The notes beneath the pieces are model-generated. The model ran no database searches, was not told where the DNA came from, and saw only the letters and a list, made by a program, of their open reading frames with translations. The position numbers and the translations under genes were made by a program. From assembly GCA_013122435.1 (NCBI GenBank), contig WYDT01000031.1:1-64000 (forward strand): a stretch of 64,000 nucleotides of DNA, read 5' to 3'. Below are positions 432 to 27,655 of this stretch, piece by piece; the stretch's first letter is position 1; each line of letters starts with the position of its first letter. Origin of the DNA: Chloroflexi bacterium AL-N1 (lineage in GTDB: Bacteria; Chloroflexota; Chloroflexia; Chloroflexales; Roseiflexaceae).

Positions 432-502
432 CTTCTTCTGTGGTATCATAGTAACGTCGTACGACGAAGGCAAAACCATACTGAGGCAAGCAGGAGACCA
501 GG

Positions 503-3500
503 ATGAGTGACCATACCACCGACGACGCTCCCACAACACCATCAACGGTCGAGCGGCTGACCCGTGCGCTTGATCACGTCCAGCACGGCGACAACCCACC
601 GTCTGCATGGATCTTCCAGTGCAATCCGCGCGACTATGACCTCTCTGCCGCACTCGATGAACTCGATGAGCTTACCTGGGTGGTGCGCCGCCACGCCAGC
701 GAAATCCAACCCGGCGATCTGGTCTATCTCTGGGAGTCCGGCAACGACGGAGGCATCGCTGCGGTCGCACGGGTGCTCACACCACCGACAGAACAACCCA
801 GAGACGAGCGCGAAGCACAATTCTATCGTGTCCCCGAGCGCTTCGAGGGAAACGATCCCCGTGTACGACTACGCATCGAACAGGTGCTTGGCGAACGCCT
901 GACCCGCGATGAACTCCAACACGACCCACAACTACACGACATGGCCATCCTCAAGAGTCCTCAAGGCACCAATTTCTCACTTACTGCTGCAGAAGCCGAG
1001 CGGCTGGTGGAACTCAGAGCAGATCGCGCAGAGGATGCCAACCGATATATGACTGGCGCAGAGGCCGGTCTCAAGCAGCAACAACAAATGGTCATTGCGC
1101 TCCAAGAGATGGTCAGACAGGGTGGTAAGGCCAGCAATCAAAATCTCTATGATGCCATTGAAGCCCATATGGATGGGCGCAAACTCTCACAGCAGGGCAA
1201 AGATACACTGCGAAGCTACATTAATCGTGATGCATGTGATGAGGGCTATGTACATCCGTATGATAGCGACCAGCCAGGATGGTCTATCACACCAGAAGGA
1301 CGGGCAATGGTGGAACAATATAACCTTGATATAGATGATGATGGGCGAACTGATGCCGAGGAACTTCAAACCGACGGGCCAGGTCTGCGACGTGCCGATT
1401 GGGAGGCCGACTTTGCCACAACCAACACACTCTCCCAAAAACTTTTTGATGAGTATATGCCCTGGATCGAGCGGACTTTTGGTCGCCGGACCTACCTGCG
1501 TTTTTACAAAGACCAGAAATTTGGTATCTTTCGACGGGGCCGCTGGATCCAGTTTTGCAACCTTAACATACGTCGTAATCCCTCGATTCTGATTGCCAAC
1601 CCCAGCGACGAAATCGTAGCGTTGCTTAGTAAGCAGTTGAGTGATCCACAAACACTACGGCCACGGGGCCATGGTGTCTCGGACGGTTATCGCTTCACGA
1701 TCAGCACCGAGAGAGATCACGCACTCTTGCAGGACATCACACAACAACTGTTTGAACAGATAAGCGATGAATGGCCACCCCGGCCACTCGATGGCCCGGC
1801 CTTTATGGTCACCCACAGCAAAGATGGGGAACACCAATTGTATGGCCAGACCTATGCGTTTAGTAACTTCACCAGCGGGGCCAGCAAAGAACTGATCCGG
1901 GTACTCGAAACTTTTGAGGAGAGTATGCCCGTCTACTTTATCATCTATCGTACACGACCATATCACGGCTTTACTGCCTGGGCACAGGTTACCAATGTGC
2001 GAACCGAGACCGTGTCCAACCGCAACAACCAGCAAATCTGGATCGTCGATCTGGACCAGCAGGAATTTCCCGTTGCTTTATATCTCAAGGATGCCGATAC
2101 CAAGCTTACCCACAGGCTTAGTTGGCTACGTCAGGGAGCATCCGACCTGCGCGGATCGAGTATTCGTGCTATCACACCCAGCGACTTTGCCACGATTATC
2201 AATGCTGCACGCCGGGCTGGAGCACAGCCGATGAGTGCCGGCGATGTGGCCTTTACCGTTTTGCGCCAGGCCGAGAACGATGTGCTCACTCTGAAAGAGA
2301 TCTACGAACAGGCCCAACAACAGCATCTGATCGACGACCAGGTATCACAACTCGATCTGGCACGGGCACTCCAACAGGATGCCGCGCGTTTTACCGATTT
2401 AGGGGATAATCACTGGGAGCTAAACCATGTACCAACCGACGCTGAAGCGTATGTCAACGATGCGTTTGCACCCAAGATCCATGCCGGTTCTGATGCAGCA
2501 TTCTGGCGGATTCATATTCCAAATGAACGGTGGGAAGAAGCTCGCCAGCACAATGTGATTGGGATCAATCATGATAATCCCAATAACCAGAGTTTCACCC
2601 GCTTTCGTCGTATCAATGTGGGCGACCGGATCGTGGCCTATGTGCAGGGCGGCGTAGTTGGTGGCATTGGTGTGGTCACCCAGGCATACACGCCCGGAAG
2701 CACACAGAATAGTCTGTTTAACGGTGAGTATCCCTATCAGATCGCGGTTGCATGGGCCGACGCGCCGAACCAGCCTGTTCCGCTCTACCAGGAACTAAAG
2801 GCTGAGCACTACACCGACCTGTATAATCGGCTCAAAAACCCGCACACGGTGGTCCCGCTGAGCCGTGAAGATTATGTCGATCTACTACGTCTCATGCAGG
2901 TGGATGACGCCGGAACGCCCGAAGACGACACGCGCTTACCACCCGCATGGGAGAAGCTGAACGCTTTCTACGATTACATCCAGACACTGGAAAATCGTCC
3001 CTACAACGCTACGGAACTTTTGCACATGGCGCGGGAGCAGGTTGCATTTAATGATCAGCTTGACGAGGACGACCTGGTCACCGATTTACAGCAGTTGCGC
3101 CTGATCACCCCGGTTGAGAGTAACAAATATCAGCGGCAACCCTACACTGAAGGGCAGACCTCGGCAGTGTTACGGTTCATGGCACTGGCATTACTCGTTC
3201 CGTTGGAAGGCACTGCCGAGACCTATGTGTTGCCGGCACAAGACATTCTGCCACAGCTACGCAGCATTACCGAGCCACAACCACACGACAGCTTTGCGCC
3301 CAAACTCGGCAATAATGGCATGACGCTGCTGCAATGGTACGCCGAGGCTGGGCTGGTCACCATCGATGAGGAGACATGGCAGCCTACCGACGAGGCATTG
3401 GAAGCACTGAGCGGAGAGGATAGCGCTACCGCGGCCCATAACCAGTTTCTCGCAACGCTGACCGCCGCTATCGATGGGAGTCTCACACACGATCTGGCAC

Positions 3501-4927
3501 AGGCCAGTGGCCCATTGCTCCCCATCACCGATCTTGATGAGCGCTTGCGCGAGTTGGGCCAGGTGCTGTTGATCGACGAAATGATCGTACGGCGGATCTA
3601 CCGCTCGTTGATGGCAGGCCGCCACGTGGTCCTCAGTGGGCCACCAGGGACGGGCAAAACCGAACTGGCGCAGCGGCTTCCTTCATTGTTGTGGCGCGAG
3701 CCACCACAAACCTTTCACCGTCTCACCAACCGCCTGGATCAGCCCCCTGTGCTAGAGATCACCGAAACACGCCACGGCTATGCGGCAGTGGTGGTAACGG
3801 CGACTGAGGATTGGGGCGTCCGTGATGTTATCGGTGGTATTGGTCCCCAGCTTGATGGCAGCAAAAATCTAAGCTATACGATGCAGTATGGTGCGCTCAC
3901 CCGTGTGATTTTGCAGCACTACGAAGGCACCGACAAAGGCCGCCGCCTGCCCTCTCGCATCAGCGAACTGCAACGCCGTGATTATCATGACGACACCGGC
4001 ACGCGCTACCGAGGGGCTTGGCTGGTGATCGATGAGTTTACGCGTGCCCCTGTTGACGCGGCCTTTGGGAGCCTGCTAACCACGCTGAGTGGCGGCCAGC
4101 ATGCCTCGCTGGCCGTACCAGCATCTTCGGGCGAACAGGTCGATATTCCGCTACCTGCAGATTTTCGTATTATCGGGACACTGAATTCATTTGACCGTCA
4201 CTTCCTGAACCAGCTGAGTGAGGCGCTCAAACGTCGGTTTGATTTTATCGATGTGCCACCACCTGCCCCTGAGCTTGAGCGATACGAACAAGGCATTGCA
4301 GCGGCACAGGCATTCAAACGATTGCACGCCAGTGGATTTGACCAGATCAGCGTCGAGGGTGCTCCACCGACATATCGCTGGAGCGACACGCAGGGTGTGG
4401 TGGCTGTAATTCCCACAGGTGAGCATTATCAACTTGATGTGCACCATCCGAATGCACAACGGGCCTTCGATAGCTTCTGGCGACTCTTTCGTGCTATCCG
4501 TGTCTTTCGGCAGCTTGGCACAGCACAAGCCGTCGCGGTCTACACCAATCTGCTGACGGGGGTGGTGATTGCCGGTATGGATTGGAGTGCTGCACTCGAC
4601 ACAGCACTGGCCGACTCGCTGGCCGATCAGCTACAGGTGCTAACCCGCGATGAACAACAGGTGATTGAAGCCTATACACGAACATCGGGAGCAGACTTTG
4701 TCAAAGAACTTCACAATATCTTTAACCGCTTGACTGACGGTCAGCGTCGCGCCCTGTTGCACACCATGCACGAAGCTGATCAGCGCCGCCACGGTGTCAG
4801 CACAATCACTGATCGTAAAGATCTTGCCGAGACCGACATCCGACGCGTATTTGAGCCAGGTGACGTTCTCGATCTGTTGAGCTTCCGGAAGCGATTGCGT
4901 GATTTTATGGGCGAACGTGGATTGTAG
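503..4927 (+). CDS. EVE-domain McrB-like AAA+ ATPase
   Basis: A 1474-residue protein, probably the motor and modified-base sensor of a type IV (McrBC-like) restriction system. Residues about 34-130 look like an EVE domain (start WIFQCNPRDYDL), a fold known to read modified bases in DNA or RNA. A second EVE-like block lies near 660-760 (FWRIHIPNERW), and a weaker block near 430-590 may be a further reader module. The AAA+ motor is C-terminal: Walker A GPPGTGKT at 1046-1053, Walker B LVIDEF at 1174-1179, sensor GTLNSFD near 1224, and an ALKRRFDFID segment with likely arginine fingers near 1242. The start has a good ribosome site (AGGAGACCAGG-ATG). The nuclease gene follows after 9 bp, so the two are surely one operon. 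It is much longer than classical McrB. McrB-like assignment is firm; target and defence function are inferred. Confidence 0.85.
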   Translation: MSDHTTDDAPTTPSTVERLTRALDHVQHGDNPPSAWIFQCNPRDYDLSAALDELDELTWVVRRHASEIQPGDLVYLWESGNDGGIAAVARVLTPPTEQPRDEREAQFYRVPERFEGNDPRVRLRIEQVLGERLTRDELQHDPQLHDMAILKSPQGTNFSLTAAEAERLVELRADRAEDANRYMTGAEAGLKQQQQMVIALQEMVRQGGKASNQNLYDAIEAHMDGRKLSQQGKDTLRSYINRDACDEGYVHPYDSDQPGWSITPEGRAMVEQYNLDIDDDGRTDAEELQTDGPGLRRADWEADFATTNTLSQKLFDEYMPWIERTFGRRTYLRFYKDQKFGIFRRGRWIQFCNLNIRRNPSILIANPSDEIVALLSKQLSDPQTLRPRGHGVSDGYRFTISTERDHALLQDITQQLFEQISDEWPPRPLDGPAFMVTHSKDGEHQLYGQTYAFSNFTSGASKELIRVLETFEESMPVYFIIYRTRPYHGFTAWAQVTNVRTETVSNRNNQQIWIVDLDQQEFPVALYLKDADTKLTHRLSWLRQGASDLRGSSIRAITPSDFATIINAARRAGAQPMSAGDVAFTVLRQAENDVLTLKEIYEQAQQQHLIDDQVSQLDLARALQQDAARFTDLGDNHWELNHVPTDAEAYVNDAFAPKIHAGSDAAFWRIHIPNERWEEARQHNVIGINHDNPNNQSFTRFRRINVGDRIVAYVQGGVVGGIGVVTQAYTPGSTQNSLFNGEYPYQIAVAWADAPNQPVPLYQELKAEHYTDLYNRLKNPHTVVPLSREDYVDLLRLMQVDDAGTPEDDTRLPPAWEKLNAFYDYIQTLENRPYNATELLHMAREQVAFNDQLDEDDLVTDLQQLRLITPVESNKYQRQPYTEGQTSAVLRFMALALLVPLEGTAETYVLPAQDILPQLRSITEPQPHDSFAPKLGNNGMTLLQWYAEAGLVTIDEETWQPTDEALEALSGEDSATAAHNQFLATLTAAIDGSLTHDLAQASGPLLPITDLDERLRELGQVLLIDEMIVRRIYRSLMAGRHVVLSGPPGTGKTELAQRLPSLLWREPPQTFHRLTNRLDQPPVLEITETRHGYAAVVVTATEDWGVRDVIGGIGPQLDGSKNLSYTMQYGALTRVILQHYEGTDKGRRLPSRISELQRRDYHDDTGTRYRGAWLVIDEFTRAPVDAAFGSLLTTLSGGQHASLAVPASSGEQVDIPLPADFRIIGTLNSFDRHFLNQLSEALKRRFDFIDVPPPAPELERYEQGIAAAQAFKRLHASGFDQISVEGAPPTYRWSDTQGVVAVIPTGEHYQLDVHHPNAQRAFDSFWRLFRAIRVFRQLGTAQAVAVYTNLLTGVVIAGMDWSAALDTALADSLADQLQVLTRDEQQVIEAYTRTSGADFVKELHNIFNRLTDGQRRALLHTMHEADQRRHGVSTITDRKDLAETDIRRVFEPGDVLDLLSFRKRLRDFMGERGL

Positions 4928-4936
4928 GAGGACACG

Positions 4937-7246
4937 ATGGTACATCCTACCGCCGCCGAGCGTGACGCGTTTCTCTGGATGCAGGCACGCATGGTCGAGT
5001 TGTTGTTGCGCTACGACGCTCAACGCTTTAGTGTTACGTTTCGCGAGCAAATCGCAGATCAGGCCGATCCATTAAAAGATACCTTTCTGAGACACTACCG
5101 CGATCTGGCGGTGCTCTTCTATCTCCGCGATGAGCTGTTTGAGTCAATCCTGCCACGCATCAAACGACGTTTGAGTTTTGCGGCACCACGTGAGCATACC
5201 GTCGAGAGGCTGCCACCGCGTGGGCGTGTCGATTGGGGACACACTGCTACAACCACCCTGCACACCTACCCCGGCGAGATGCCGCTCGAAGTACAGACCC
5301 GCCAGCGCCGCCGTCACTTTGCCACACCCGAAAACCTGTTGACTGTCGCAACATTGCTGGCATACCGCAAATCTGTGCAACGCCTGCTCGATGAGGAAGA
5401 TCGCTATGACCACATTCTGGCCCTCCGACATCCGTTGCATGGAATTGTGGAGTCGTGTACACGTGAGTTGGCGTTTTTGCAATTTGCTGGGCTGGTGCGT
5501 GAGGCGCAGGCTCTTGTAGAGGGCTTTGCAAAAACGAGTATCGACGATCTCGAAGCCACCGTCGCCGATCACCTGCTGCCGGGGCGCAATAGTGCTTACG
5601 ACGATCTGTTAGACTGGCGCAGACGACTACGATCACTTGAACTGCTCGACCGCACTGCTACAGATGCCACGACCATGTTGGGAGCAAACCCTGACCGCGA
5701 TAATTATCTGTACCAGCTCTGGCTATTCTACGAAATCGCCGATCTGCTGCGGCGGACCCACAGGCTTCAGGAGTGGAATATCAACAGGATGCAGCTCACG
5801 TTTCGGTGGGGCGATGCTGATTCGGCTGTGGACTACACGCTGACCCATGATCAAGCCATTGTGCAACATTGGCACAACGCTCCCGGTGTTCGGCCCGATC
5901 TGTATGTACGGCAAAACAACGCAATAGAGATCCGAGATGGCAACGATCTGATCTGGCGCGAAATGGGCTATGTGCTGGATGCAAAATACTACCGGCCAGA
6001 CGAAAATGGGGCAACGCCTGCCAGCCCGATCAAACGCATGATCGCCGATCTCCATCTGACAGGGCAACAACACGGGGCATTGCTCTTTGCATTTCACCAA
6101 GGACCGGAATTATCTGACGAAGCCCACCTTTTCAAGGTGCAAGTTATGCCAGATACGCATGGTATCCATGCCATGTTGCCCGAGACACATATCGACATCT
6201 GGTGTTTTCAACCTGAAAGTACCGTATCAACACAACAACTTGCTACACAACTCACAACATTACTCGAAACGATTCACACAACTCTCAAAGATCCGGTACC
6301 AATCATTTGTCATGGCTTTCTCCCCGATGTCGACACGATCAATCCCAGTAGCACACCTCTAGAACGGTGTACACAATGCAACGAACTCCTGGCGTACTGC
6401 CCCAAACCGCATGTGCGTCACGGCCATATCGACCGAGTCTGTCCCCGCTGCGATTGTCTCCGCACCAAGCGTATGTGTCACATCATTGGTCAGGGGACCA
6501 TCACTGCACCACCATTCGTCAAACGTGTGCTGACTCAGGACGATCTGTTCACCAATATAGGAAAACTTCGCACATGGCTCCAAGAAATGGTCCAAGCAGA
6601 TGATGAAAGCGACGAAGCTGAACAGCAGCGACAGTATGTGCTACGTACTATTGGCGAACTCACAGAGTCATATATCAAACTCACGCGTGCTGATACAACG
6701 CAAACCGAGCAGACATTACGCGAGTGGGTCTTTGGCACGTACTGGGATATGACAAAAACACCTCGTGGCCTATCGCAACTCGCACGACAAATGCTAATCT
6801 CAGGTGAGTATGTATGGAACCAATTTCAACAAAGCACTGTGGAGGATTGGGCAGCCTGTGCTGTGCAATACACCCGCACACTTGAGCACGAATTGCATCG
6901 CCGTCTGTATGACCCTTGTGGTAGGCGTTTGCGTAACAGATATGGCAAACCAATGATATCTAAAGATTTTACTATAGGAACGCCTGGGAATGCCTATGAT
7001 TATCGTCATGACAACCACAATTGGCAAACACTGCTCGATTACGCCGCGAAACCCAGTGGTATTGATGAGGCGACACTCGTACAATTGGTTGCAGACATTG
7101 AGTCAGTGCGCCCAATGCGTAACAAAGTAGCCCACACCGATCATGTGGACACCCACCTCGCCCGTGAGCTACGCGAGACGCTTCTGGGGGCTCATGGAAA
7201 ACAGGGATTGCTGCTGCGGCTAATCTCAGTGCTCGATCCAGGGTAG
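4937..7246 (+). CDS. McrC-like (DUF2357-type) PD-(D/E)XK nuclease with zinc ribbon and HEPN-like tail
   Basis: A 769-residue predicted nuclease partner of the upstream AAA+ protein. A PD-(D/E)XK core sits near residues 318-352: RPDLYV, an internal acidic stretch, then VLDAKYYRP with the D-A-K catalytic triplet. The upstream part resembles the DUF2357 region of McrC-family proteins. A zinc ribbon with CxxC pairs (CTQC, CPRC) lies at about 476-520. The last 120 residues are helical and contain RNKVAH at 728-733, which fits the R-N/D-xxx-H signature of HEPN ribonucleases. If that is right, one polypeptide carries both a DNA-type and an RNA-type nuclease. The ribosome site TAGGAGGACACG precedes the ATG, 9 bp after the upstream stop. 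Nuclease partner: well supported. HEPN activity: inference. Confidence 0.8.
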   Translation: MVHPTAAERDAFLWMQARMVELLLRYDAQRFSVTFREQIADQADPLKDTFLRHYRDLAVLFYLRDELFESILPRIKRRLSFAAPREHTVERLPPRGRVDWGHTATTTLHTYPGEMPLEVQTRQRRRHFATPENLLTVATLLAYRKSVQRLLDEEDRYDHILALRHPLHGIVESCTRELAFLQFAGLVREAQALVEGFAKTSIDDLEATVADHLLPGRNSAYDDLLDWRRRLRSLELLDRTATDATTMLGANPDRDNYLYQLWLFYEIADLLRRTHRLQEWNINRMQLTFRWGDADSAVDYTLTHDQAIVQHWHNAPGVRPDLYVRQNNAIEIRDGNDLIWREMGYVLDAKYYRPDENGATPASPIKRMIADLHLTGQQHGALLFAFHQGPELSDEAHLFKVQVMPDTHGIHAMLPETHIDIWCFQPESTVSTQQLATQLTTLLETIHTTLKDPVPIICHGFLPDVDTINPSSTPLERCTQCNELLAYCPKPHVRHGHIDRVCPRCDCLRTKRMCHIIGQGTITAPPFVKRVLTQDDLFTNIGKLRTWLQEMVQADDESDEAEQQRQYVLRTIGELTESYIKLTRADTTQTEQTLREWVFGTYWDMTKTPRGLSQLARQMLISGEYVWNQFQQSTVEDWAACAVQYTRTLEHELHRRLYDPCGRRLRNRYGKPMISKDFTIGTPGNAYDYRHDNHNWQTLLDYAAKPSGIDEATLVQLVADIESVRPMRNKVAHTDHVDTHLARELRETLLGAHGKQGLLLRLISVLDPG

Positions 7247-7256
7247 ATGGCGGGGG

Positions 7257-7371
7257 CATTGGGACGTTGGAACAAACGAGCGGGTACACAGAAGGAGCGG
7301 TGGAACAAGATTTGATTGCTCTTCTCCCGCGCCCCAACGTCCTAACGTTCCAACGCTCAACTGCCCAATCG
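7257..7371. repeat. 8-bp word repeats, inverted pair of short arrays
   Basis: Immediately after the nuclease gene come two words in inverted orientation (CATTGGGA, CGTTGGAA at 7257-7272). A forward run in exact 8-bp phase follows at 7332-7371 (CCCCAACG, TCCTAACG, TTCCAACG, CTCAACTG, CCCAATCG). This is the same vocabulary as the array upstream of the cassette, so the two-gene system is bracketed by one repeat family. Confidence 0.7.
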
Positions 7372-7379
7372 CTCAAAAA

Positions 7380-7697
7380 TTAAAAGAACCCTAATTCATC
7401 GCGCGCTTCTTCGGTCATCATGGATGGATTCCAGAACGGCGTCCAGACCAGATTGATCTGCACCTCCGACAGGTTTTTGTAGACATCGCCCAACGACATG
7501 ACTTCCTGGCGAGCCTGCTCAATAATTTGTGGACCTGCCGGACATGCCGGCGTTGTCAATGTCATATCAACAGCGACCGTCTCTCCACCATCTTGAACGT
7601 CAATACCATAGACCAAACCCAGGTTTACAATGTCCAAACCAATTTCAGGATCAATTACATTTTTGAGTGCTGTACGCACCATTTCTTCAGATACCAT
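7380..7697 (-). CDS. MIP18/DUF59 family metal-sulfur cluster assembly protein
   Basis: A 105-residue protein of the MIP18 (DUF59) family, which includes SufT and PaaD and acts in maturation or insertion of iron-sulfur clusters. The family pattern is clear: IDPEIGLDIVNLGLVY near residues 15-30, and the TTPACPAG segment with the conserved cysteine near residue 52. Length is normal for a stand-alone member. The start has GAGGAG upstream. It lies 141 bp downstream of the ArsA-type ATPase on the same strand. P-loop ATPases and DUF59 proteins often work together in cluster delivery, but a joint role here is only inferred. Confidence 0.88.
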   Translation of the reverse strand: MVSEEMVRTALKNVIDPEIGLDIVNLGLVYGIDVQDGGETVAVDMTLTTPACPAGPQIIEQARQEVMSLGDVYKNLSEVQINLVWTPFWNPSMMTEEARDELGFF

Positions 7698-10670: not shown

Positions 10671-13600
10671 TTAGCGACTCACGATAGGCAGGGCAGTCTG
10701 CCGTGCGACCATCAACTCCATCTCGACGAGGTTTGGCACCGCGTGATGATTCTCCTCTGCAGACATTATCTCAACTGTCACCCGGTAGCGGGTGCCATAG
10801 GGTGCCTCCGGGACCCGCACCCGTAGATTCCACGCAGCACCATCCAAATACCCTATATCTGGCAGATCCCAGACCATACGCTCACCATCGATAGTAGGCG
10901 TACTATCACTCGTATCCGAGACATAGGCCAGCGCATCATCCATCGTAGCTGTAACCTGAACATCCGTAGCGGTTGTACGCCCGACATTCATGTACCGAAT
11001 CGGTAGATTGAATTCACTCGCGGGTGGCGCACCCAAAAGCTGTGGAAGATAGACAGTCTGGGCTACATCTGCATAGGCAGGCATAGACCATAGCTCTTCA
11101 CCTGCCTGATCATCACTCGCACTGAAGAGTAGTGTGTCATTAAGCAAAAAGAGATGCTCTGGATTATAAATATAGTCTGCTGTTGATCCAGGCATACTGC
11201 GCCAGACCGGCATTGTTCCTTCAGAGGTGCCATCACTGCGCCAGAGCAGCCATTGATCAGCTGTAATCCATTCCGAAAAGAAAAAGATCCCCTCGATGCC
11301 ATCAACAGTCGTTAGATTGGTTGCGTCTGTGGGGGATAAGGGTTCTCGCAACTCGGCTATCATGTAGGTGCCACTATCCGTGCCATCACTTACCCACAAG
11401 CCGTACTGTTCAGGGCCATTTGCTGTAAAGAAGAGGCGCCCATTCATTACCGTCAACCAAGATGGATTACTGGCTTCGGCACCTGGATTGATATCCTTAA
11501 CTAGGCGAGTTCCCTCAGCAGTACCATCTGTCATCCATAATTCTCGGTGTAGATCGAAGGTGCCTGCTGTAAAAAATACATAATCCCCCATTACAGTGAA
11601 GTCCTCAGGATTACTACCATATGCCCCTGCCACAATATCTTTCACCAGTGTCGTGCCAGATGGCGTGCCATCACTCCGCCACAACTCGGGTCCACGCTGA
11701 GCATCATCTGCCGCAAAGATGACAGCATTTCCCATGTCAGCAAACCCATTAATAGAACCAAACTCTTGATTACCTGGACAGATATCCTTCATCAATGTTG
11801 TCCCTTCTTCAGTACCATCGCTCCGCCATACCTCAAGCCCGGTCTGTCCATCATCAGCAGCCAACCATATGGTATCGTCAGTATATATAACTGTTTCAAT
11901 AAGCTTGAATTGCTTTATAGGTATCGTGCCATTTGCCGTCCCATCACTGGCCCACAAGAAACTATGCTTATTAGAATCAGAATCGTATCCAGTGGAGGTG
12001 AAGTAAAGGGTATCTTCCATCACCTTCATATTGTCTACACCCCATACAAAGCGTTTATCAAAAAGAACTTGTGTGGTACCAGCCTCAGTGCCATCACTCT
12101 GCCACAATCCACTCCTATCATCGCCAATATACATGGTCGAGAAAAATATCTGTCCTTTGAACTCAACCATTTCGGTAACGGGCGCCAAACTATCAGCTAT
12201 ACCGGGGGCAATATCCTTCACCAATCGAGTACCTTCAGGAGTACCATCTGTCCGCCACAACTCGAAACCAAGCAATTCATCCTTAGCTGTAAAGAGCGCA
12301 TAATCTCCTACTTGTGCAAACCCAGACAGATTTGAACCCTTTGGATAGGTGTTGATATCTTTCACACGGGTTGTACCTTCTTCGGTCCCGTCACTGCGCC
12401 AGAGTTCAACATCGCCTTCTCCCCAGATACCTGAAGATCGATCCATGGCTGCAAAGAAAAGCTGGTCATTCACGTTGGCCAGACGTTGTGGCCCTGCATT
12501 ACCATTTGGAAAAATGTCTTTGACAAGCGCTGTGCCCGCTTCAGTCCCGTCACTACTCCACAACTTGTGCCCACCCGGCTGGCCATCACTGGCAACAAAG
12601 AATAGTATGCCTCCTACATTTACTAACTCGTGTGAGGCAGAACTTAGTGATCCAGGCAAAATATCTTTCACCATACGTGTCCCTACAGCAGTTCCATCAC
12701 TAATCCATAATTCTTGACCTACATCCGTTTCGTTAGTAATTGCAGAAAAGAAGAGATCATTGTTTACTGGTGTAAAATGTCCTGGAGGTTGATTTACGGG
12801 GAAAACTCTCACTAACTGTGTGCCTTCAGGAGTACCATCGCTGCGCCATAAACCAGGCTGTGACTGCTCATCTTCCCCAACAAAAAACAAAGTAGGACCA
12901 ACCGGCGTTAACTCTTTAGGGAATATACCTTCGGCACCTGGAACAGCATCGACAACTAGTCGGGTGCCTTCATAAGTACCATCACTGGTCCAGAGTTCGT
13001 GTCCATGTTCTGCATCATAACCACGGAAGAAGAGGGTGCCATTGACATTCGTCAATGCACTAATCGTCATAATATCAGGACCTGGTGGTGGGGGTGCAGG
13101 AATGGTTGGTTCTAGATCATTTTGTACCATTGTCAGGTCTGCTTGAGATCTGGTTCCTTCCAAATACGTGATGAGCACAGTTCCTTCGGAGGTGCCATCA
13201 CTGCGCCATAGGCGATATCCATCAGTAACCGGTGTCGCAAAATACAAGACATTCTGTATTGCGATCATATCGGTGTTACCCCGAAACCCCTGAGACAACT
13301 CTTTCACAAGTTCAGCGTTGCCTGGAGAACCATCACTCTTCCACAAACCTAATACTCCATCAAAGTTGGTAGATAGGAAGAATAGAGTTCCATTCATTGC
13401 TGTCAAATGGCCGGATGTTCCATCACTCCCGCCAGGTATAATATTAGCAACCATATACGTTCCTGCGGTTGTACCATCACTTGTCCACAATGAGCGCCGT
13501 GACTCACCATTACGAGCAGAGAAGAAAAGGCGATTACCAACCATTATCAGATCATCAGGACCACTCCCTGCTTCTCCTGAACCAACATCTTTGATAGCCC

Positions 13601-13880
13601 GTGTTCCAGCTTCTGTACCATCACTAAACCATAAAATCCTATTTGCTGCAGGTCTTGAGATTGACTCGCGTGGACCTGATGCTACAAAATAGAAGCCTTG
13701 CTCAGTTGGTGTGATATCGCTGGGAAACGATCCTACAGTACTGTTCTCAATATCCTTCACTAAATCGGCGACGACAGGCGAGTTCTGTACAGGACTCGCC
13801 ATCGTAGTCATGCCTATCAACGACAGAACCATAAGGGGTATACAGACACCCCACCATCTCTTAGATACATGGCCTCGCAT
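10671..13880 (-). CDS. Secreted ELWxSDGT-repeat protein, paralog 1
   Basis: A 1069-residue exported protein. A signal peptide is evident at the N-terminus (KRWWGVCIPLMVLSLIGM, cleavage near residues 28-31). The body holds 17 copies of the ELWxSDGT(x)xGT motif at roughly 47-60 residue spacing, a family typical of large bacterial surface proteins and probably beta-propeller-like. The last 130 residues form a separate domain like the Ig-type repeats of DUF11 proteins, with a YMNVGRTTATDV segment, ending in ALPIVSR. The ribosome site AAAGGGGG precedes the ATG. It is the third of three tandem paralogs on this strand. Function is unknown; adhesion, predation or sheath roles are speculation. Confidence 0.85.
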   Translation of the reverse strand: MRGHVSKRWWGVCIPLMVLSLIGMTTMASPVQNSPVVADLVKDIENSTVGSFPSDITPTEQGFYFVASGPRESISRPAANRILWFSDGTEAGTRAIKDVGSGEAGSGPDDLIMVGNRLFFSARNGESRRSLWTSDGTTAGTYMVANIIPGGSDGTSGHLTAMNGTLFFLSTNFDGVLGLWKSDGSPGNAELVKELSQGFRGNTDMIAIQNVLYFATPVTDGYRLWRSDGTSEGTVLITYLEGTRSQADLTMVQNDLEPTIPAPPPPGPDIMTISALTNVNGTLFFRGYDAEHGHELWTSDGTYEGTRLVVDAVPGAEGIFPKELTPVGPTLFFVGEDEQSQPGLWRSDGTPEGTQLVRVFPVNQPPGHFTPVNNDLFFSAITNETDVGQELWISDGTAVGTRMVKDILPGSLSSASHELVNVGGILFFVASDGQPGGHKLWSSDGTEAGTALVKDIFPNGNAGPQRLANVNDQLFFAAMDRSSGIWGEGDVELWRSDGTEEGTTRVKDINTYPKGSNLSGFAQVGDYALFTAKDELLGFELWRTDGTPEGTRLVKDIAPGIADSLAPVTEMVEFKGQIFFSTMYIGDDRSGLWQSDGTEAGTTQVLFDKRFVWGVDNMKVMEDTLYFTSTGYDSDSNKHSFLWASDGTANGTIPIKQFKLIETVIYTDDTIWLAADDGQTGLEVWRSDGTEEGTTLMKDICPGNQEFGSINGFADMGNAVIFAADDAQRGPELWRSDGTPSGTTLVKDIVAGAYGSNPEDFTVMGDYVFFTAGTFDLHRELWMTDGTAEGTRLVKDINPGAEASNPSWLTVMNGRLFFTANGPEQYGLWVSDGTDSGTYMIAELREPLSPTDATNLTTVDGIEGIFFFSEWITADQWLLWRSDGTSEGTMPVWRSMPGSTADYIYNPEHLFLLNDTLLFSASDDQAGEELWSMPAYADVAQTVYLPQLLGAPPASEFNLPIRYMNVGRTTATDVQVTATMDDALAYVSDTSDSTPTIDGERMVWDLPDIGYLDGAAWNLRVRVPEAPYGTRYRVTVEIMSAEENHHAVPNLVEMELMVARQTALPIVSR

Positions 13881-13935
13881 AAACGCCCCCTTTCCTAAAT
13901 GGCTACTATGCTACATTGTATATTACGTTGTGATA

Positions 13936-16900
13936 TTATCGCCCTATAATGGGTAATACAGTCTGTCGTGCGACCATCACCTCCATTTCGGCCCGTTGTG
14001 GCACCGCGTGATGGTTCTCCTCTGCTGATGACACGTCGACTGTCACACGATAGCGGGTGCCATAGGGCACCTCCGGGACCTGTACGCGCAGATTCCACGC
14101 TGCACTATCCAGATACCCCATATCCGGCAGATCCCAGACTATGTGCTCGCCATCAATAGCAGACGTAATCTCACTTGCATCAGAAATATAGGTTAATGCT
14201 GAGTCCATAGTAACGGTAAGACGCACATCAGCAGCAGTCATACGGCCAACATTCATGTACCGAATCGGGATATCTACTTCATCGGCGGGAGGCACCCCAA
14301 AGAGAGGAGGGACAAGCACTGTCTGCGCTACGCCAGCATATGATGGTAATGACCATAACTCTTCCCCTGTTTCGACATCTTCGGTACTGAACAGAAGTGC
14401 ATTTTCCAAGAACACCATGTGATCAGGATTGTAGATATATGAGGAGGTATTTCCAGGGGTGCCATTCCGAACTGGTCTGGTTCCTTCAGCGGTACTATCG
14501 CTGCGCCACAAAACAATATTCTCTTTGCTATTGGGCGCAGAAAAAAAGAGCATATCATCAATACTGGTCAGCCAAATATCATTAGAAACATTTATATATG
14601 GTGGTAATTCGGCTATTAACTGCGTCCCTTCATCTGTACCATCACTCACCCATAAACCATATTGAGATTTATCGTATGCTAGAAAGAAGAGTTGTTCACC
14701 CATTACTGTAAACCATGTTGCATCCATCCTACCACCATCTACTCTGATATGTTTCAGCCAACGTGTGCCCGCTGTAGTCCCATCGGAGACCCATAGATCC
14801 TCACCAAAATCCTCTTTACTGTATCCTCGTGTATCAGCAGTAAAGAACACATACTTCCCAACGGCAGTTACGATTTTTGGATTACTGGGATCGGCTCCTG
14901 GAACAATATCTTTCACCTGTACTGTACCTGTAGTCGTCCCATCACTCTTCCATAACTCTAAACCGGTTGCTCCATCATTTCCTGCAAACAATATGTCATC
15001 ACCAATACCGGCAAATCCATCACCTATAAATCCATTAGAAAACTCATCGCCCAACTGAATATCCCTCACCCATACGGTCCCTTCTGTCGTTCCATCACTT
15101 TTCCACAAACCTACTGCCCCGTTATCAGCAGCTAACCACAATGTTCCATTAATATTGACCATATGGTCAATATGATTAAGCTGTTTGACTGGTACCGTTC
15201 CAGATGTGGTTCCATCACTCTTCCATAATGTCTGATCATCAGAGGAGATAAAGTAGAGTTGGTCATCTAATACTGTCATATCTCGTAAATAGGTGCCTGC
15301 TTGTTCAAAATCAAACACCATGTTTGTTCCATCAGATGTGCCATCACTGCGCCAAAGTTCTGGAGCGTCTGATTGATTGACCCTAACAAAGAACAAATTT
15401 CCGTTTGTATATATCATCTGTGGAATCCAACTTAGTTCATTATTCTCACCATTCTGAATATCTCTTATTAGTGTAGTACCTTGCACCGTACCATCAGTGC
15501 GCCAGAGTTCCCATCCATTCACCATATCAAACGCAGTAAAAAAAGCCGTATCATCTCCTTGAGTGAGTGACACAGAAAATGAGTTATCCGACCTTGTATT
15601 AATATCTTTTACTTCTACTGTCCCTGCTGCTGTCCCATCACTTCTCCATAATTCTGAATCATAATATGGTTGGGTTCCTCCTTGAAAAAACAATATTTCA
15701 TTCACACCTACTAAATTCGTAGGTTCTACACTTGCTTCAACTACATATGTCCCTGCTGCTGTCCCATCACTTCTCCACAAACGTCTGTCCAGGTGTGAAG
15801 ATGGATCATCAGCCGAAAAGAAAAGTAGTCCATTTACTGTTGTTAACTCAAAAGGAAATGAACCTGTAGATCCAGGCACAATCTCCTTCACCTGGACCGT
15901 CCCTGCTGCTGTCCCATCACTTTTCCACAACTCTCGATTAAAAATTTCCTCGCCATCACTGGCTGAAAAAAAGAGCATATTGTCAACGACGGTCAAAGCT
16001 GCCGGTGGCGACTCTGGGCGAGGAAAACTCCTAATCTCCCGGGTACCCTCAGCTGTCCCATCACTAGACCAGATGCCGCGTTCCGTTGCATAATTAATAC
16101 CAACATAAAAGAGCTTATCCCCTATAACAGTTAGCTCTTTGGGAAAATTGCTGATGACACCAGCGGTAGCATCTACCACCATGCGCGTCCCCTCAGATGT
16201 ACCATCACTGATCCAAAGTTCATGACCATGCACTTCGTCGTAGCCACGGAAGAAGAGCGTCCCATCCACATTGGTCAGTTCGCGGGGTGAAAAAGGCCAG
16301 ATTGGATCATTGGATGATGGAATAAAAGAAAGTGCTACATCTTTTGGTGCTGTATTAAGGGCTGCATACCCAAAATGTTTGAGGACAGCTGTACCGTCAG
16401 GGCTACCATCGCTCTTCCAGAGATTAGAACCAACTTCTGACTGAGCAATAATATATAGCGTATTTTCGATTGCAATCATTTCAGCCCAACCAGTTACACC
16501 AGAGGAAGCTAACTGTGCAACCAACGTCATATCACCGGGATCACCATTGCTTTTCCAAAGAGAAAAGTTGCCATTTTCATCTTCTGCTGTAAAGAAAAGC
16601 TGACCGTTGAGATCAGTAAAGTTCGTTAATTCTGCATAAGACTCACTTAACACAATTGGGTGCACAAGATACGTTCCTTTAGAGGTCCCATCACTCACCC
16701 ATAACTCATTATTATCAGTTCTGTCTTCATTCACGGTAAAAAAGAGGCGGTCACCGATGATTGTAAGACGAGATGGGTTGCTACTCTTTTTTCCAGGAAC
16801 AATATCCTTAACCATCTGTGTTCCAGCCTCTGTTCCATTACTGATCCATAATTCATACCCACGATGGCCGTCATTTGCGATGAAGAAAAATCTGTCTTTG

Positions 16901-17073
16901 TATGGAGTGATAGAGGATGGCGATGAAGACAATGTGGTAATGTTAATATCTTTAATTACTGTGGGTTGTGTAGGAGGAATGGGCTTTTGGCTAACAGCAG
17001 TTGGCGTAACCAAAAGTACTACCATCAAACAAATACTAATATAGATACAAGATAAAAATGTGCGGTAAAGCAT
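13936..17073 (-). CDS. Secreted ELWxSDGT-repeat protein, paralog 2
   Basis: A 1045-residue exported paralog of its two neighbours. The signal peptide is in the first 30 residues (SCIYISICLMVVLLVTPTAV). By eye there are again 17 repeats, a few degenerate (ELWISNGT, LWKSNGDP, LWRSDSTA). The C-terminal domain is close to that of paralog 1 (YMNVGRMTAADV, MDSALTYISD) and ends in VLPIIGR. The ribosome site AAAGGAAGG precedes the ATG. It starts 162 bp downstream of paralog 3 and ends 55 bp upstream of paralog 1, so the three may be co-transcribed. A perfect 12-bp palindrome (AGAGATATCTCT, 17145-17156) lies 72 bp before the start and could be an operator. Confidence 0.85.
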   Translation of the reverse strand: MLYRTFLSCIYISICLMVVLLVTPTAVSQKPIPPTQPTVIKDINITTLSSSPSSITPYKDRFFFIANDGHRGYELWISNGTEAGTQMVKDIVPGKKSSNPSRLTIIGDRLFFTVNEDRTDNNELWVSDGTSKGTYLVHPIVLSESYAELTNFTDLNGQLFFTAEDENGNFSLWKSNGDPGDMTLVAQLASSGVTGWAEMIAIENTLYIIAQSEVGSNLWKSDGSPDGTAVLKHFGYAALNTAPKDVALSFIPSSNDPIWPFSPRELTNVDGTLFFRGYDEVHGHELWISDGTSEGTRMVVDATAGVISNFPKELTVIGDKLFYVGINYATERGIWSSDGTAEGTREIRSFPRPESPPAALTVVDNMLFFSASDGEEIFNRELWKSDGTAAGTVQVKEIVPGSTGSFPFELTTVNGLLFFSADDPSSHLDRRLWRSDGTAAGTYVVEASVEPTNLVGVNEILFFQGGTQPYYDSELWRSDGTAAGTVEVKDINTRSDNSFSVSLTQGDDTAFFTAFDMVNGWELWRTDGTVQGTTLIRDIQNGENNELSWIPQMIYTNGNLFFVRVNQSDAPELWRSDGTSDGTNMVFDFEQAGTYLRDMTVLDDQLYFISSDDQTLWKSDGTTSGTVPVKQLNHIDHMVNINGTLWLAADNGAVGLWKSDGTTEGTVWVRDIQLGDEFSNGFIGDGFAGIGDDILFAGNDGATGLELWKSDGTTTGTVQVKDIVPGADPSNPKIVTAVGKYVFFTADTRGYSKEDFGEDLWVSDGTTAGTRWLKHIRVDGGRMDATWFTVMGEQLFFLAYDKSQYGLWVSDGTDEGTQLIAELPPYINVSNDIWLTSIDDMLFFSAPNSKENIVLWRSDSTAEGTRPVRNGTPGNTSSYIYNPDHMVFLENALLFSTEDVETGEELWSLPSYAGVAQTVLVPPLFGVPPADEVDIPIRYMNVGRMTAADVRLTVTMDSALTYISDASEITSAIDGEHIVWDLPDMGYLDSAAWNLRVQVPEVPYGTRYRVTVDVSSAEENHHAVPQRAEMEVMVARQTVLPIIGR

Positions 17074-17235
17074 TATCCTTCCTTTCCCACTGTAGTAGTC
17101 TGATATTATAGAGTAGCAAACTACAAGCTAAGTAGAGATGCGTGAGAGATATCTCTTATTGTCACAACCAAATCATGACAAAAGAACGTGCCATCAGCTA
17201 ACAAAACTGACAGCACGTCTCATTGTCCAATGGTA

Positions 17236-20200
17236 TCAGCTAATCAATGGCAAGGCTATCTGCCGCGCAACCATTAATTCGATATGTGCCATGTGGGGCA
17301 CATCTGCATGATTCACCTGTGCTGCACCTATCTGTAGCATCACTGTATAGCGAGTGCCATAGGGTGCCTCTGGGACTTGCAGACGAATCGTCCAAGCGTG
17401 GCGTTCCAAATAGGACAGATCTGGCAATTCCCAAAACAGATGACTCTCACTGACAGCAGGAGTATGATCGCTAGTATCCGAGACATAGGTTAATGCTTCG
17501 TCTATTGTGGCAGTAAGTTGCACATCGGTGGCGACTGTACGGCCCATATTCACATAGTGGACAGGGATATTTACTTCACTGGCTGGTGATACACCCAAGA
17601 AGGGTGAGGTATACAACATATGTGCCACACCCTCATAGGCCCGTATGGACCACAATTCCTGACCTGCCTGTTCATCATATGCACTCAGAAGTATAGAGTC
17701 ATTAAACAAAAACATCTCACTTGGTTTGTTGATGTATGCAGGTGACTGGCCAGGTGCCTCCTGCCATACCAGTTGTGTGCCGTCGCGGGTACCATCACTA
17801 CGCCAGAGCACCTGTTCATCATTTAGTGCAGAGAAGAACAAAAGGCCATCAATATTAGTCAACGAGCGCGGGTCGGAACCGTCGGGACCACTGCGGATGT
17901 CGCTGACGAGTACCGTACCTTGCTCCGTCCCATCACTGGTCCATAACTCACGACCTACTTTGCCATCGTCGGCAGAGAAGAACAGGTTGCGACCAACTGC
18001 CGTCAGATCACGTGGTTCGCTTGAATTGCTGCCATTTTTGATATCTTTGAGTAACCGTGTGCCTGCCTCCGTTCCATCCGTCACCCAAACCTCCTCACCA
18101 TGCACACCATCATCAACAATCAAGAAAACTCGTCCGTCTGTCGAAGTCAAATTGTAGAGATAGGTAGATTCTGATCCTAGTTTAATATCCTTGACGAGCA
18201 CCGTCCCTTGCTCGGTCCCATCACTCCGCCACAACTCCGTCCCACGCTGACCATCATTGGCGGTAAACAGCACACCGTCATTCAGCTCAACCAACCAACC
18301 TATCTCGCCAGAAGGTCCGGGCCATATATCCTTGACGAGCACCGTCCCTTGCTCAGTCCCATCACTCCGCCACAACTCCGTCCCACGCTGACCATCATTG
18401 GCGGAGAACCATAAGCTACCATTCACCTGAATGACCCGTCCGATAGCATTAAATTGTTTTACCGCTACTGTACCATTTGCCGTCCCGTCACTCGCCCACA
18501 ACACACTACGGTTATCGAAGGTATGCGTGGTGAAGTAGAGGGTATCATTCATCACTAGCATATTCCATAAGGAACTCCCCAACACCTCGTCTCCAAGAAC
18601 TAACTCGGTGCCTGCTTCCGTTCCATCACTGCGCCACAATGTAGCACTCTGTGTATCACCGGAAAAGAACAGCTTTCCATCAAACGCAACTATATCACTA
18701 AAACGCGACATTCCGTCTTCAATACCAGGGGCAATATCCTTCACCATCTGCGTTCCTTCAGTCGTGCCATCTGTTTGCCAGAGTTCCAAGCCCAGCAATT
18801 CATCATTAGCTATAAAGAACGCTCTATCTCCGACCTGAACGAAATGATCAGGCTCAGACCCCTTTGGCGAGGTATTAATATCTTTAACACGCTGTGTACC
18901 TGCCTCAGTCCCATCACTCCGCCAGAGTTCAACATCCCCATCCTGAAACACATTAAAAGATCGGTCCTTAGCAGCGAAAAACAACGTACCATTGACATTG
19001 GTTAACCACATGGGGGTGGAGTCACTCGTTGGAAAAATATCCTTAACAATAGTTGTACCCGCTTCGGTACCATCACTCTTCCATAGCTCCGTTCCATGTT
19101 GACCATCATTGGCACTAAAAAAGACCACTCCCTCGACATTCACAAGTTCTCTAGCTCCTGAACTCTCTGCTCCAGGCCAAATATCCTTCACCATCTGCGT
19201 TCCTTCAGTGGTCCCATCACTTTTCCATAACTCTCTGTTGGTACCCGTTTCATCATCACTTGCGGAAAAAAAGAGCGTATTGTCAACAACGGTCAAAAAC
19301 GATGGTGGCTCTTCTGGTCGAGGAAAACTTCTAATTTCGCGAGTGCCTGCTTCGGTCCCATCACTGGACCAGATACCACGTTCTGTTGCATAATTGACCC
19401 CTACATAAAAAAACGCATTTCCCATAACGGTCAGCTCTCTGGGGAAATTACTGATGACACCAGGTGTCGCGTCAATGACCATCTGGGTACCTTCTTGTGT
19501 ACCATCACTGCGCCAGAGTTCATATCCATGTGCGCCATCATAGCCACGGAAAAACAAGGTACCATTCACATCGGTTAACTCGCCGACCAATATTCTCTCA
19601 ATATCTGGAGGAATCGAAGGGATCATCGGTTGCACATCATCCGGAGTAGTTACTCCAGTAGTTGATGTGTCTATTTCAAACCGTTTGAGCATCATGGTGC
19701 CAGTTGGTGTTCCATCACTGCGCCAGAGTTCTGCCCCACCAGCAATGGGAACGATGATGTACAACGTATCTTGTACTGCAATCATGTCAAGCGTACCAGG
19801 ATTATCTGGCACTAATTCTTTGACAAGTGTTACCCCTCCTGGCGACCCATCGCTCTTCCAAAGACTTAGCATGTTGTTTTCTGAAAGGGCCAAAAAGAAC
19901 AATGTATCATTAAAGTCAGTCAGATTGTTAGGATCTGAGCCACGCTGACCGGGGAAGAGATCAGCCACCATAAACGTTCCTGCTTCGGTCCCATCACTGG
20001 TCCATAATTCTGACCCATGACGACCATCACCGAAGGAGAAAAAGAGTTGCTCACCAACTGTGGTCAGACCAGATGGGCCACTACCACCATCAGGGCCAAC
20101 AGCAAGTTTGCGAACTAGACGTGTCCCATTAGTTGTGCCATCACTAAACCACAAACCACCAACAGAATCAATCGCCGTGAAATAGAATCCTTGCTCCGTT

Positions 20201-20379
20201 GGGGTGATATTACCTGGAAGTGATGCAAAGGTACTCTCGTCAATATCCTTTAGGAGCCCCGCTGTACCTGCAAACTCCTGTGAAGTAGAAGTATTGGCAG
20301 TAACTGTGGTGTTAATGAGCAGCATGCCTATAATCATCGTACACACACTAATCCATCGTACACACACACGATTTCGCAT
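17236..20379 (-). CDS. Secreted ELWxSDGT-repeat protein, paralog 3
   Basis: A 1047-residue exported paralog. I place the start at 20379 rather than at the longer in-frame start 20490: AAAGGAGAATGAT lies directly before this ATG, and a normal signal peptide then follows (MRNRVCVRWISVCTMIIGML). There are 17 ELWxSDGT motifs by eye. Two neighbouring repeats at about 18191-18405 are nearly identical in DNA, a sign of recent duplication. The C-terminal Ig-like domain ends in ALPLIS. It is the promoter-proximal member of the three-gene array and is transcribed divergently from the nSTAND-WD40 gene, with 125 bp between the two starts. Confidence 0.87.
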   Translation of the reverse strand: MRNRVCVRWISVCTMIIGMLLINTTVTANTSTSQEFAGTAGLLKDIDESTFASLPGNITPTEQGFYFTAIDSVGGLWFSDGTTNGTRLVRKLAVGPDGGSGPSGLTTVGEQLFFSFGDGRHGSELWTSDGTEAGTFMVADLFPGQRGSDPNNLTDFNDTLFFLALSENNMLSLWKSDGSPGGVTLVKELVPDNPGTLDMIAVQDTLYIIVPIAGGAELWRSDGTPTGTMMLKRFEIDTSTTGVTTPDDVQPMIPSIPPDIERILVGELTDVNGTLFFRGYDGAHGYELWRSDGTQEGTQMVIDATPGVISNFPRELTVMGNAFFYVGVNYATERGIWSSDGTEAGTREIRSFPRPEEPPSFLTVVDNTLFFSASDDETGTNRELWKSDGTTEGTQMVKDIWPGAESSGARELVNVEGVVFFSANDGQHGTELWKSDGTEAGTTIVKDIFPTSDSTPMWLTNVNGTLFFAAKDRSFNVFQDGDVELWRSDGTEAGTQRVKDINTSPKGSEPDHFVQVGDRAFFIANDELLGLELWQTDGTTEGTQMVKDIAPGIEDGMSRFSDIVAFDGKLFFSGDTQSATLWRSDGTEAGTELVLGDEVLGSSLWNMLVMNDTLYFTTHTFDNRSVLWASDGTANGTVAVKQFNAIGRVIQVNGSLWFSANDGQRGTELWRSDGTEQGTVLVKDIWPGPSGEIGWLVELNDGVLFTANDGQRGTELWRSDGTEQGTVLVKDIKLGSESTYLYNLTSTDGRVFLIVDDGVHGEEVWVTDGTEAGTRLLKDIKNGSNSSEPRDLTAVGRNLFFSADDGKVGRELWTSDGTEQGTVLVSDIRSGPDGSDPRSLTNIDGLLFFSALNDEQVLWRSDGTRDGTQLVWQEAPGQSPAYINKPSEMFLFNDSILLSAYDEQAGQELWSIRAYEGVAHMLYTSPFLGVSPASEVNIPVHYVNMGRTVATDVQLTATIDEALTYVSDTSDHTPAVSESHLFWELPDLSYLERHAWTIRLQVPEAPYGTRYTVMLQIGAAQVNHADVPHMAHIELMVARQIALPLIS
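18191..18405. repeat. Recent 141-bp duplication inside paralog 3
   Basis: The 74-bp stretch at 18191-18264 recurs at 18332-18405 with essentially one visible difference. The 141-bp spacing equals 47 codons, one ELWxSDGT unit. The other repeats in the gene have diverged much more, so this copy is recent. Confidence 0.8.
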
Positions 20380-20467
20380 ATCATTCTCCTTTCCTACGTG
20401 CCTATGAGAAAGAACAGCATTATTAGACAACAATTCTGATGCAGAAACAAGCACTTTAGGGTACAAT

Positions 20468-20503
20468 AAGCGGTATAAAAAGCGGGACAAAAAGCGGTAA
20501 AAA
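20468..20503. promoter_or_regulatory. Three 12-bp direct repeats (AAGCGGNANAAA), putative operator
   Basis: Three perfectly phased 12-bp units at 20468, 20480 and 20492 read AAGCGGTATAAA, AAGCGGGACAAA and AAGCGGTAAAAA. The last unit ends one base before the ATG of the nSTAND-WD40 gene. That protein has an N-terminal XRE helix-turn-helix, so autoregulation is a natural inference. The repeats also lie in the shared promoter region of the divergent ELWxSDGT genes. No strong ribosome site is otherwise visible before 20505. Confidence 0.5.
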
Positions 20504-27607: not shown

Positions 27608-27655
27608 TCAAATACTCCTTGTAAAAGCCGCAACATATCAAACACGTAACAAAAT

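Follow-up and report, generated by a model that had tools for sequence, protein, structure and literature searches.

A McrBC-type gene pair of Chloroflexi bacterium AL-N1 with a multi-reader GTPase and a predicted HEPN domain on its McrC-like partner

The window analyzed here is a stretch of 64,000 nucleotides, positions 1 to 64,000 of the forward strand of contig WYDT01000031.1 (assembly GCA_013122435.1), from the Chloroflexota member Chloroflexi bacterium AL-N1. Between positions 503 and 7246, it contains a pair of genes separated by 9 bp. Gene 1 encodes a McrB-like GTPase preceded by an array of reader domains, and gene 2 encodes a McrC-like nuclease extended by a zinc site and a predicted HEPN domain. 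We consider it reasonably likely that the pair is a McrBC-type (type IV restriction-like) defense module that joins DNA and RNA nucleases in one partner chain, and that it probably acts against viruses with chemically modified DNA. Both genes are open reading frames with strong ribosome-binding sites:

491–497, plus strand: ribosome-binding site of gene 1, AGGAGA
503–4927, plus strand: gene 1, multi-reader McrB-like GTPase, 1474 residues
4925–4931, plus strand: ribosome-binding site of gene 2, TAGGAGG, overlapping the gene 1 stop codon
4937–7246, plus strand: gene 2, McrC-like nuclease with zinc site and predicted HEPN domain, 769 residues

The gene 2 product carries the following features, of which the HEPN domain is probably the most distinctive part of the system:

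4937–5656, plus strand: DUF2357-like N-terminal region, residues about 1–240, partly inside the DUF2357/PDDEXK_7 alignment described below
5882–6136, plus strand: intact PD-(D/E)xK nuclease core RPD...LDAKYY, residues 316–400
6308–6481, plus strand: zinc site of conserved Cys and His residues in 39 homologues
6794–7243, plus strand: predicted HEPN domain, residues about 620–769, from hhalign and an all-helical AlphaFold2 model
7118–7135, plus strand: RNxxxH motif RNKVAH, residues 728–733, conserved in 39 homologues

Profile comparison identifies the gene 2 product as a divergent McrC. The profile of 39 homologues aligned to 25 DUF2357/PDDEXK_7 proteins over 315 columns with an hhalign probability of 94%, and this similarity ends ahead of the zinc and HEPN part of the protein. 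The 25-member family was used for comparison because the single E. coli McrC sequence aligned to the gene 2 profile in the DAKYY segment alone. Other comparisons gave less: the window protein has no direct Pfam family match, a Pfam scan of family consensus sequences returned only PDDEXK_7 (0.0015, below cut-off), DUF2357 was matched weakly by one of 20 members, the N-terminal region compared alone to DUF2357/PDDEXK_7 proteins reached a weak 2%, and the profile of the McrC set matched neither McrC nor HEPN among PDB sequences. These similarities point to a McrC adjacent to its McrB, with a DUF2357-like N-terminus and a PD-(D/E)xK core (PD-DxK hereafter). The core is intact in the window protein and most homologues and degenerate in five of the 39 complete ones (loci L125, L117, L121, L124, and L090). 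Since L117, L121, and L124 group in a single clade of the GTPase tree, degeneration occurred in at least three lineages, provided that the partner genes share the history of the GTPases. In the zinc site, C458, C488, H492, C507, and C514 are invariant in the 39 homologues, and H515 is kept in 95%. A McrC-like nuclease with a zinc motif, 9 bp behind the motor gene, had been proposed in the initial annotation of this DNA; the profile alignment, the PD..LDAK motif, and the zinc site bear it out.

The gene 2 C-terminus is predicted to be a HEPN ribonuclease on the basis of profiles and motif invariance. The last ~150 residues pair with HEPN_Swt1 at 70–79% hhalign probability, and a slightly longer stretch pairs with RiboL-PSP-HEPN at 58%. 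The positive control, HEPN_Swt1 against RiboL-PSP-HEPN, reached 32%, and reversed or unrelated segments gave 0.1–0.4%. The conserved RX4-6H motif of HEPN domains is present: all 39 complete homologues keep R728, N729, and H733, including the five with a degenerate PD-DxK core. Invariance of RNxxxH even where PD-DxK has decayed fits catalysis better than scaffolding and suggests that, within the clade, RNA cleavage may be a more constant output than DNA cutting, which would vary more. Single-sequence Pfam scans were weak (HEPN_Swt1 in three and RiboL-PSP-HEPN in two of 20 members, best 0.0073), and none of the Chloroflexota proteins with HEPN_Swt1 or RiboL-PSP-HEPN matches that were checked as bridges matched the McrC-like profile. 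The all-helical AlphaFold2 model of the C-terminus has a pLDDT (predicted local distance difference test score) of 89, but Foldseek gave it no significant match among PDB or viral models. Separately, the C-terminal end of NCBIfam HP0729_fam is matched by nine of 35 homologues, well under its cut-off (best 1.1e-5), in a region at 7061–7201 of the window (protein 2 residues about 709–755), and HP0729 may share the RNxxxH domain.

Gene 1 divides into a C-terminal motor and an N-terminal half filled by reader modules:

605–1012, plus strand: EVE domain 1 (EVE1), residues 35–170, Pfam EVE 1.3e-18, with a whole-genome search match at the same bases
1049–1321, plus strand: wH2, winged-helix-like module, residues 183–273, homologous to GmrSD_N and Mrr_cat proteins
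1385–1747, plus strand: MIDa, alpha/beta module, residues about 295–415, from phmmer and an AlphaFold2 model
1790–2221, plus strand: MIDb, predicted PUA-superfamily EVE/YTH-like fold, residues about 430–573, from AlphaFold2 and Foldseek
2243–2422, plus strand: HARE-HTH, residues 581–640, Pfam 5.1e-7 as an isolated segment
2498–2905, plus strand: EVE domain 2 (EVE2), residues about 666–801, from Pfam and profile comparisons
3515–4924, plus strand: McrB-type AAA+ GTPase, residues about 1005–1474, from similarity to E. coli McrB and motifs
3638–3661, plus strand: Walker A motif GPPGTGKT, from a 34-row alignment
4184–4195, plus strand: NxxD GTPase signature NSFD

The motor matches E. coli McrB structures (E 4.2e-10), and GPPGTGKT, IDE, and N[ST]FD, the Walker A, Walker B, and NxxD motifs of a McrB-type GTPase, are all kept in 34 of 34 aligned rows. 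Read from its sequence, wH2 would be a winged helix; it is 45–52% identical to the N-termini of three GmrSD_N proteins (L068, L083, L085) and one Mrr_cat protein (L084). GmrSD and Mrr are modification-dependent enzyme families. MIDa has phmmer matches in L052, L080, and L128 and occurs, as judged by eye, without MIDb in L096, and a HARE-HTH homologue in L053 scores 5.1e-11 in Pfam. The AlphaFold2 model of residues 285–645 (pLDDT 81), which covers MIDa and MIDb, returned Foldseek matches dominated by EVE, YTH, and ASCH domains, with the EVE protein Rpa0253 (2gbs) at the top (E 3.7e-4, probability 1.00), followed by YTHDC2 (7.7e-4) and 1zce (3.2e-3). We ascribe these matches to MIDb and not MIDa from the aligned length of ~150 and the strand order, the query range not being printed. 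The model thus predicts a PUA-like fold for MIDb, an EVE/PUA assignment that lacks a sequence-level match, the MIDb profile having found none among PDB sequences. For EVE2, a profile of eight homologues found as its sole near-significant PDB match the UPF0310/EVE protein PH1033 (E 0.017), aligned over almost its full length, and the pairing of the EVE2 and EVE1 profiles reached 27% probability, against 0.1–3.3% for unrelated controls. EVE1, EVE2, and MIDb are accordingly candidate modified-base readers attached to a McrB, with binding predicted from sequence and model.

The initial annotation had described several EVE/PUA readers (an N-terminal EVE block, a second one near residue 660, and possibly a third reader segment), a C-terminal McrB-type AAA+ motor, and a McrC partner, and all of these stood up to the analysis; the HEPN, wH2, HARE-HTH, and MIDa modules had been overlooked. 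It had also put the pair forward as a candidate novel variant of type IV restriction acting in defense, to be given up if the second and third reader segments lacked an EVE/PUA fold or if homologues lay consistently outside defense contexts. The analysis supports this idea: EVE/PUA similarity is found in both segments, and homologues have DISARM, BREX, and Gabija genes among their neighbors.

A scan of 84,980 species genomes, relying on exact peptide patterns that distant members elsewhere may escape, yielded 43 loci, all titled Chloroflexota or its orders and genera, save one contig of a Gracilibacteria metagenome-assembled genome. The gene pair is adjacent across the homologous loci. No relative of the McrC-like protein was found on plasmids or viral contigs, and matches in phages were to the GTPase part alone. 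Upstream neighbors were grouped into BLAST clusters; representatives of these were scanned, and the other members were assigned by cluster. DrmA and DrmB lie directly upstream in L112 (scanned; cluster-mates L119, L120, L129, and L132), and a DrmMI/Eco57I-type methyltransferase in L122 (scanned; cluster-mates L104, L106, L107, L115, and L117). BREX genes are upstream in L097 (PglZ and BrxL) and L093 (BrxL; scanned as L056), and Gabija GajA and GajB in L100. Several loci have no recognized defense neighbor among the genes scanned, and all these figures are raw counts without a random-neighborhood control, so that enrichment is not quantified. As a side observation, a protein of ~125 residues lies between McrB and McrC in L093 (9598–9972 and 18803–19174) and L097 (7790–8170) and just upstream of McrC in L108 (3–365); one of the copies scores 3.7e-18 against PF05635, the family of 23S rRNA intervening sequences, and the other copies cluster with it.

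The reader array is gained and lost between close relatives. Architectures include EVE1-MID-HARE-EVE2 (L128), EVE1-HARE-EVE2 (L096), MID-wH2-HARE-EVE2 (L092), and the shorter MIDb-EVE2 (L095), wH2 alone (L106), or no named reader. Of two Chloroploca species, L118 lacks about 989 bp that in L096 encode EVE1 and a portion of MIDa, with flanking DNA 98–99% identical; the resulting 952-residue protein keeps HARE, EVE2, and the motor. In L093, the McrB has no named readers, and the adjacent upstream BrxL (5649–7613) ends in MIDb, which replaces the usual BrxL C-terminus. The multi-EVE architecture requires three changes on the 34-row GTPase tree and therefore does not form one clade. In addition, a 1345-residue protein in L080 (7963–12000) carries EVE1, MID, and HARE modules with a weak AAA_5 match; it has no strong match to the gene 1 GTPase or the McrC-like partner and is a more distant relative with the same reader array.

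The pair resembles the McrBC of E. coli and T. gammatolerans in its AAA+ GTPase with Walker A/B and NxxD motifs, a reader placed N-terminal to the motor, and an adjacent McrC with PD-DxK, DAKYY being common with E. coli McrC. It differs in having three PUA-fold and two winged-helix-type modules in place of one reader, and in a McrC homologue of 769 residues, about twice the 348 residues of the McrC there, with an extra zinc site and predicted HEPN domain. With the CoCoNuTs, which are defined by an NxD GTPase motif (PMC11090510), it shares a core of McrB and McrC, segments that bind zinc, the presence of a nuclease and a HEPN RNase (here predicted) in one system, and association with other defense systems. 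We nevertheless rejected CoCoNuT membership because the GTPase motif is NxxD (N[ST]FD in every row), not NxD; in addition, the HEPN domain is fused here to the McrC homologue and there lies on a separate CnuE protein, and PD-DxK is here mostly intact. No coiled-coil McrB fusion was seen, although no coiled-coil predictor was run. EVE joined to McrB has a precedent in the EVE-McrB fusions (PMC7641849), and relatives in the Ktedonobacterales have a DISARM-like cassette immediately upstream, which recalls the DISARM-associated canonical McrBC (PMC12458937); the keyword-matched passages of these two papers mention neither a multi-EVE McrB nor a HEPN-fused McrC. The HEPN endoRNases of restriction-modification loci (PMC3710099) share the RxxxxH motif and, in general terms, the fusion of HEPN to a restriction nuclease; that paper does not mention McrC and has a DUF4145 HEPN in an operon with McrB/C, unfused. 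Searches of openly licensed papers for HEPN with McrC, DUF2357, DISARM, and McrBC turned up no account of a HEPN-fused McrC, and a HEPN domain on a McrC-like nuclease appears to be unreported for such systems. Any priority is provisional, since only openly licensed papers were covered and Bell et al. promise another paper about the NxxD branches.

We propose that the large protein would scan nucleic acid through readers that can be exchanged for one another, comprising two modules of winged-helix type and three pockets of PUA fold. Once they meet a target that is modified or foreign in some other way, the McrB-type GTPase ring would assemble and drive the McrC-like partner; by analogy with McrBC, reader binding would load a GTPase hexamer that then activates the partner. 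The PD-DxK domain would be expected to cut DNA and the C-terminal HEPN domain RNA; the RNA cleavage would most likely serve as a fallback abortive response or silence the transcripts of the virus. More tentatively, the conserved effector in the Chloroflexota clade may be the HEPN RNase: the multi-reader GTPase, often together with DISARM or BREX, would sense modified invader DNA and switch on RNA cleavage by the McrC chain, leading to dormancy or suicide, with DNA cutting dispensable. Several observations weigh against the proposed defense module. Foldseek found no solved or viral structure significantly like the C-terminal model, EVE2 taken alone scores 0.0014 in Pfam EVE, below the curated cut-off, several relatives lack every named reader, so that only part of the family carries them, and the window lacks the upstream side, while the scanned downstream genes are largely housekeeping.

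The missing match to a HEPN structure would also agree with an ordinary McrBC in which PD-DxK, intact in the window protein and in the majority of homologues, is the sole catalytic output and the C-terminal helical domain is structural or dimerizing while retaining a HEPN-like motif. The invariance of the RNxxxH R, N, and H in all 39 homologues, whatever the state of PD-DxK, argues against this reading, which we consider unlikely. A system directed at RNA, in which modified RNA is recognized by the YTH/EVE-like readers and then broken down by the GTPase/HEPN pair, as proposed for CoCoNuTs (PMC11090510), would draw on the predicted HEPN RNase, the YTH resemblance of MIDb, and the CoCoNuT precedent itself. 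We find it improbable, given the NxxD motif in place of NxD, the wH2 module common to Mrr and GmrSD enzymes, the intact PD-DxK, and the DISARM, BREX, and methyltransferase neighbors that point to DNA. The methyltransferase itself raises the possibility of a PcaI/LlaJI-like restriction partner, with readers that recognize unmodified sites and a methyltransferase that protects self DNA: the DrmMI/Eco57I-type cluster adjoins the pair in six loci, and PcaI is a McrBC-like enzyme with a Dcm-type methyltransferase (PMC8989522). However, scans of the DISARM-like, BREX-tail, and Gabija loci found none beside the pair, nor is one seen in the window, whose upstream side is missing, and EVE, YTH, and HARE modules are expected to read modifications, which leaves this arrangement with little probability.

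If the proposed defense module is correct, one McrC polypeptide would join DNA restriction and an RNA-cleaving shutdown, and would do so in the canonical NxxD branch of McrBC and not in the CoCoNuTs, for which the pairing of DNA and RNA outputs was proposed. The changing reader array would offer a direct route to matching module with modification.

Because the first base of the window is also base 1 of its 81-kb contig (C32), genes upstream of gene 1 are missing from the data. G-/C-rich tandem repeats with periods of 8, 24, 32, 56, and 70 occupy positions 1–433, immediately 5' of gene 1, and are probably the cause of the assembly break. The downstream genes scanned comprise Fe-S assembly, ArsA, STAS, three without identification, an nSTAND1-WD40 gene, another without identification, and two H+-pyrophosphatases. 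Three successive minus-strand open reading frames of 1045–1084 residues (10671–20490) have no Pfam match at 1e-6. The nSTAND1 NTPase with WD40 repeats (20505–24413, 1302 residues) has a possible conflict or signaling role, and the two adjoining inorganic H+-pyrophosphatase genes lie on the minus strand at 25313–29671.

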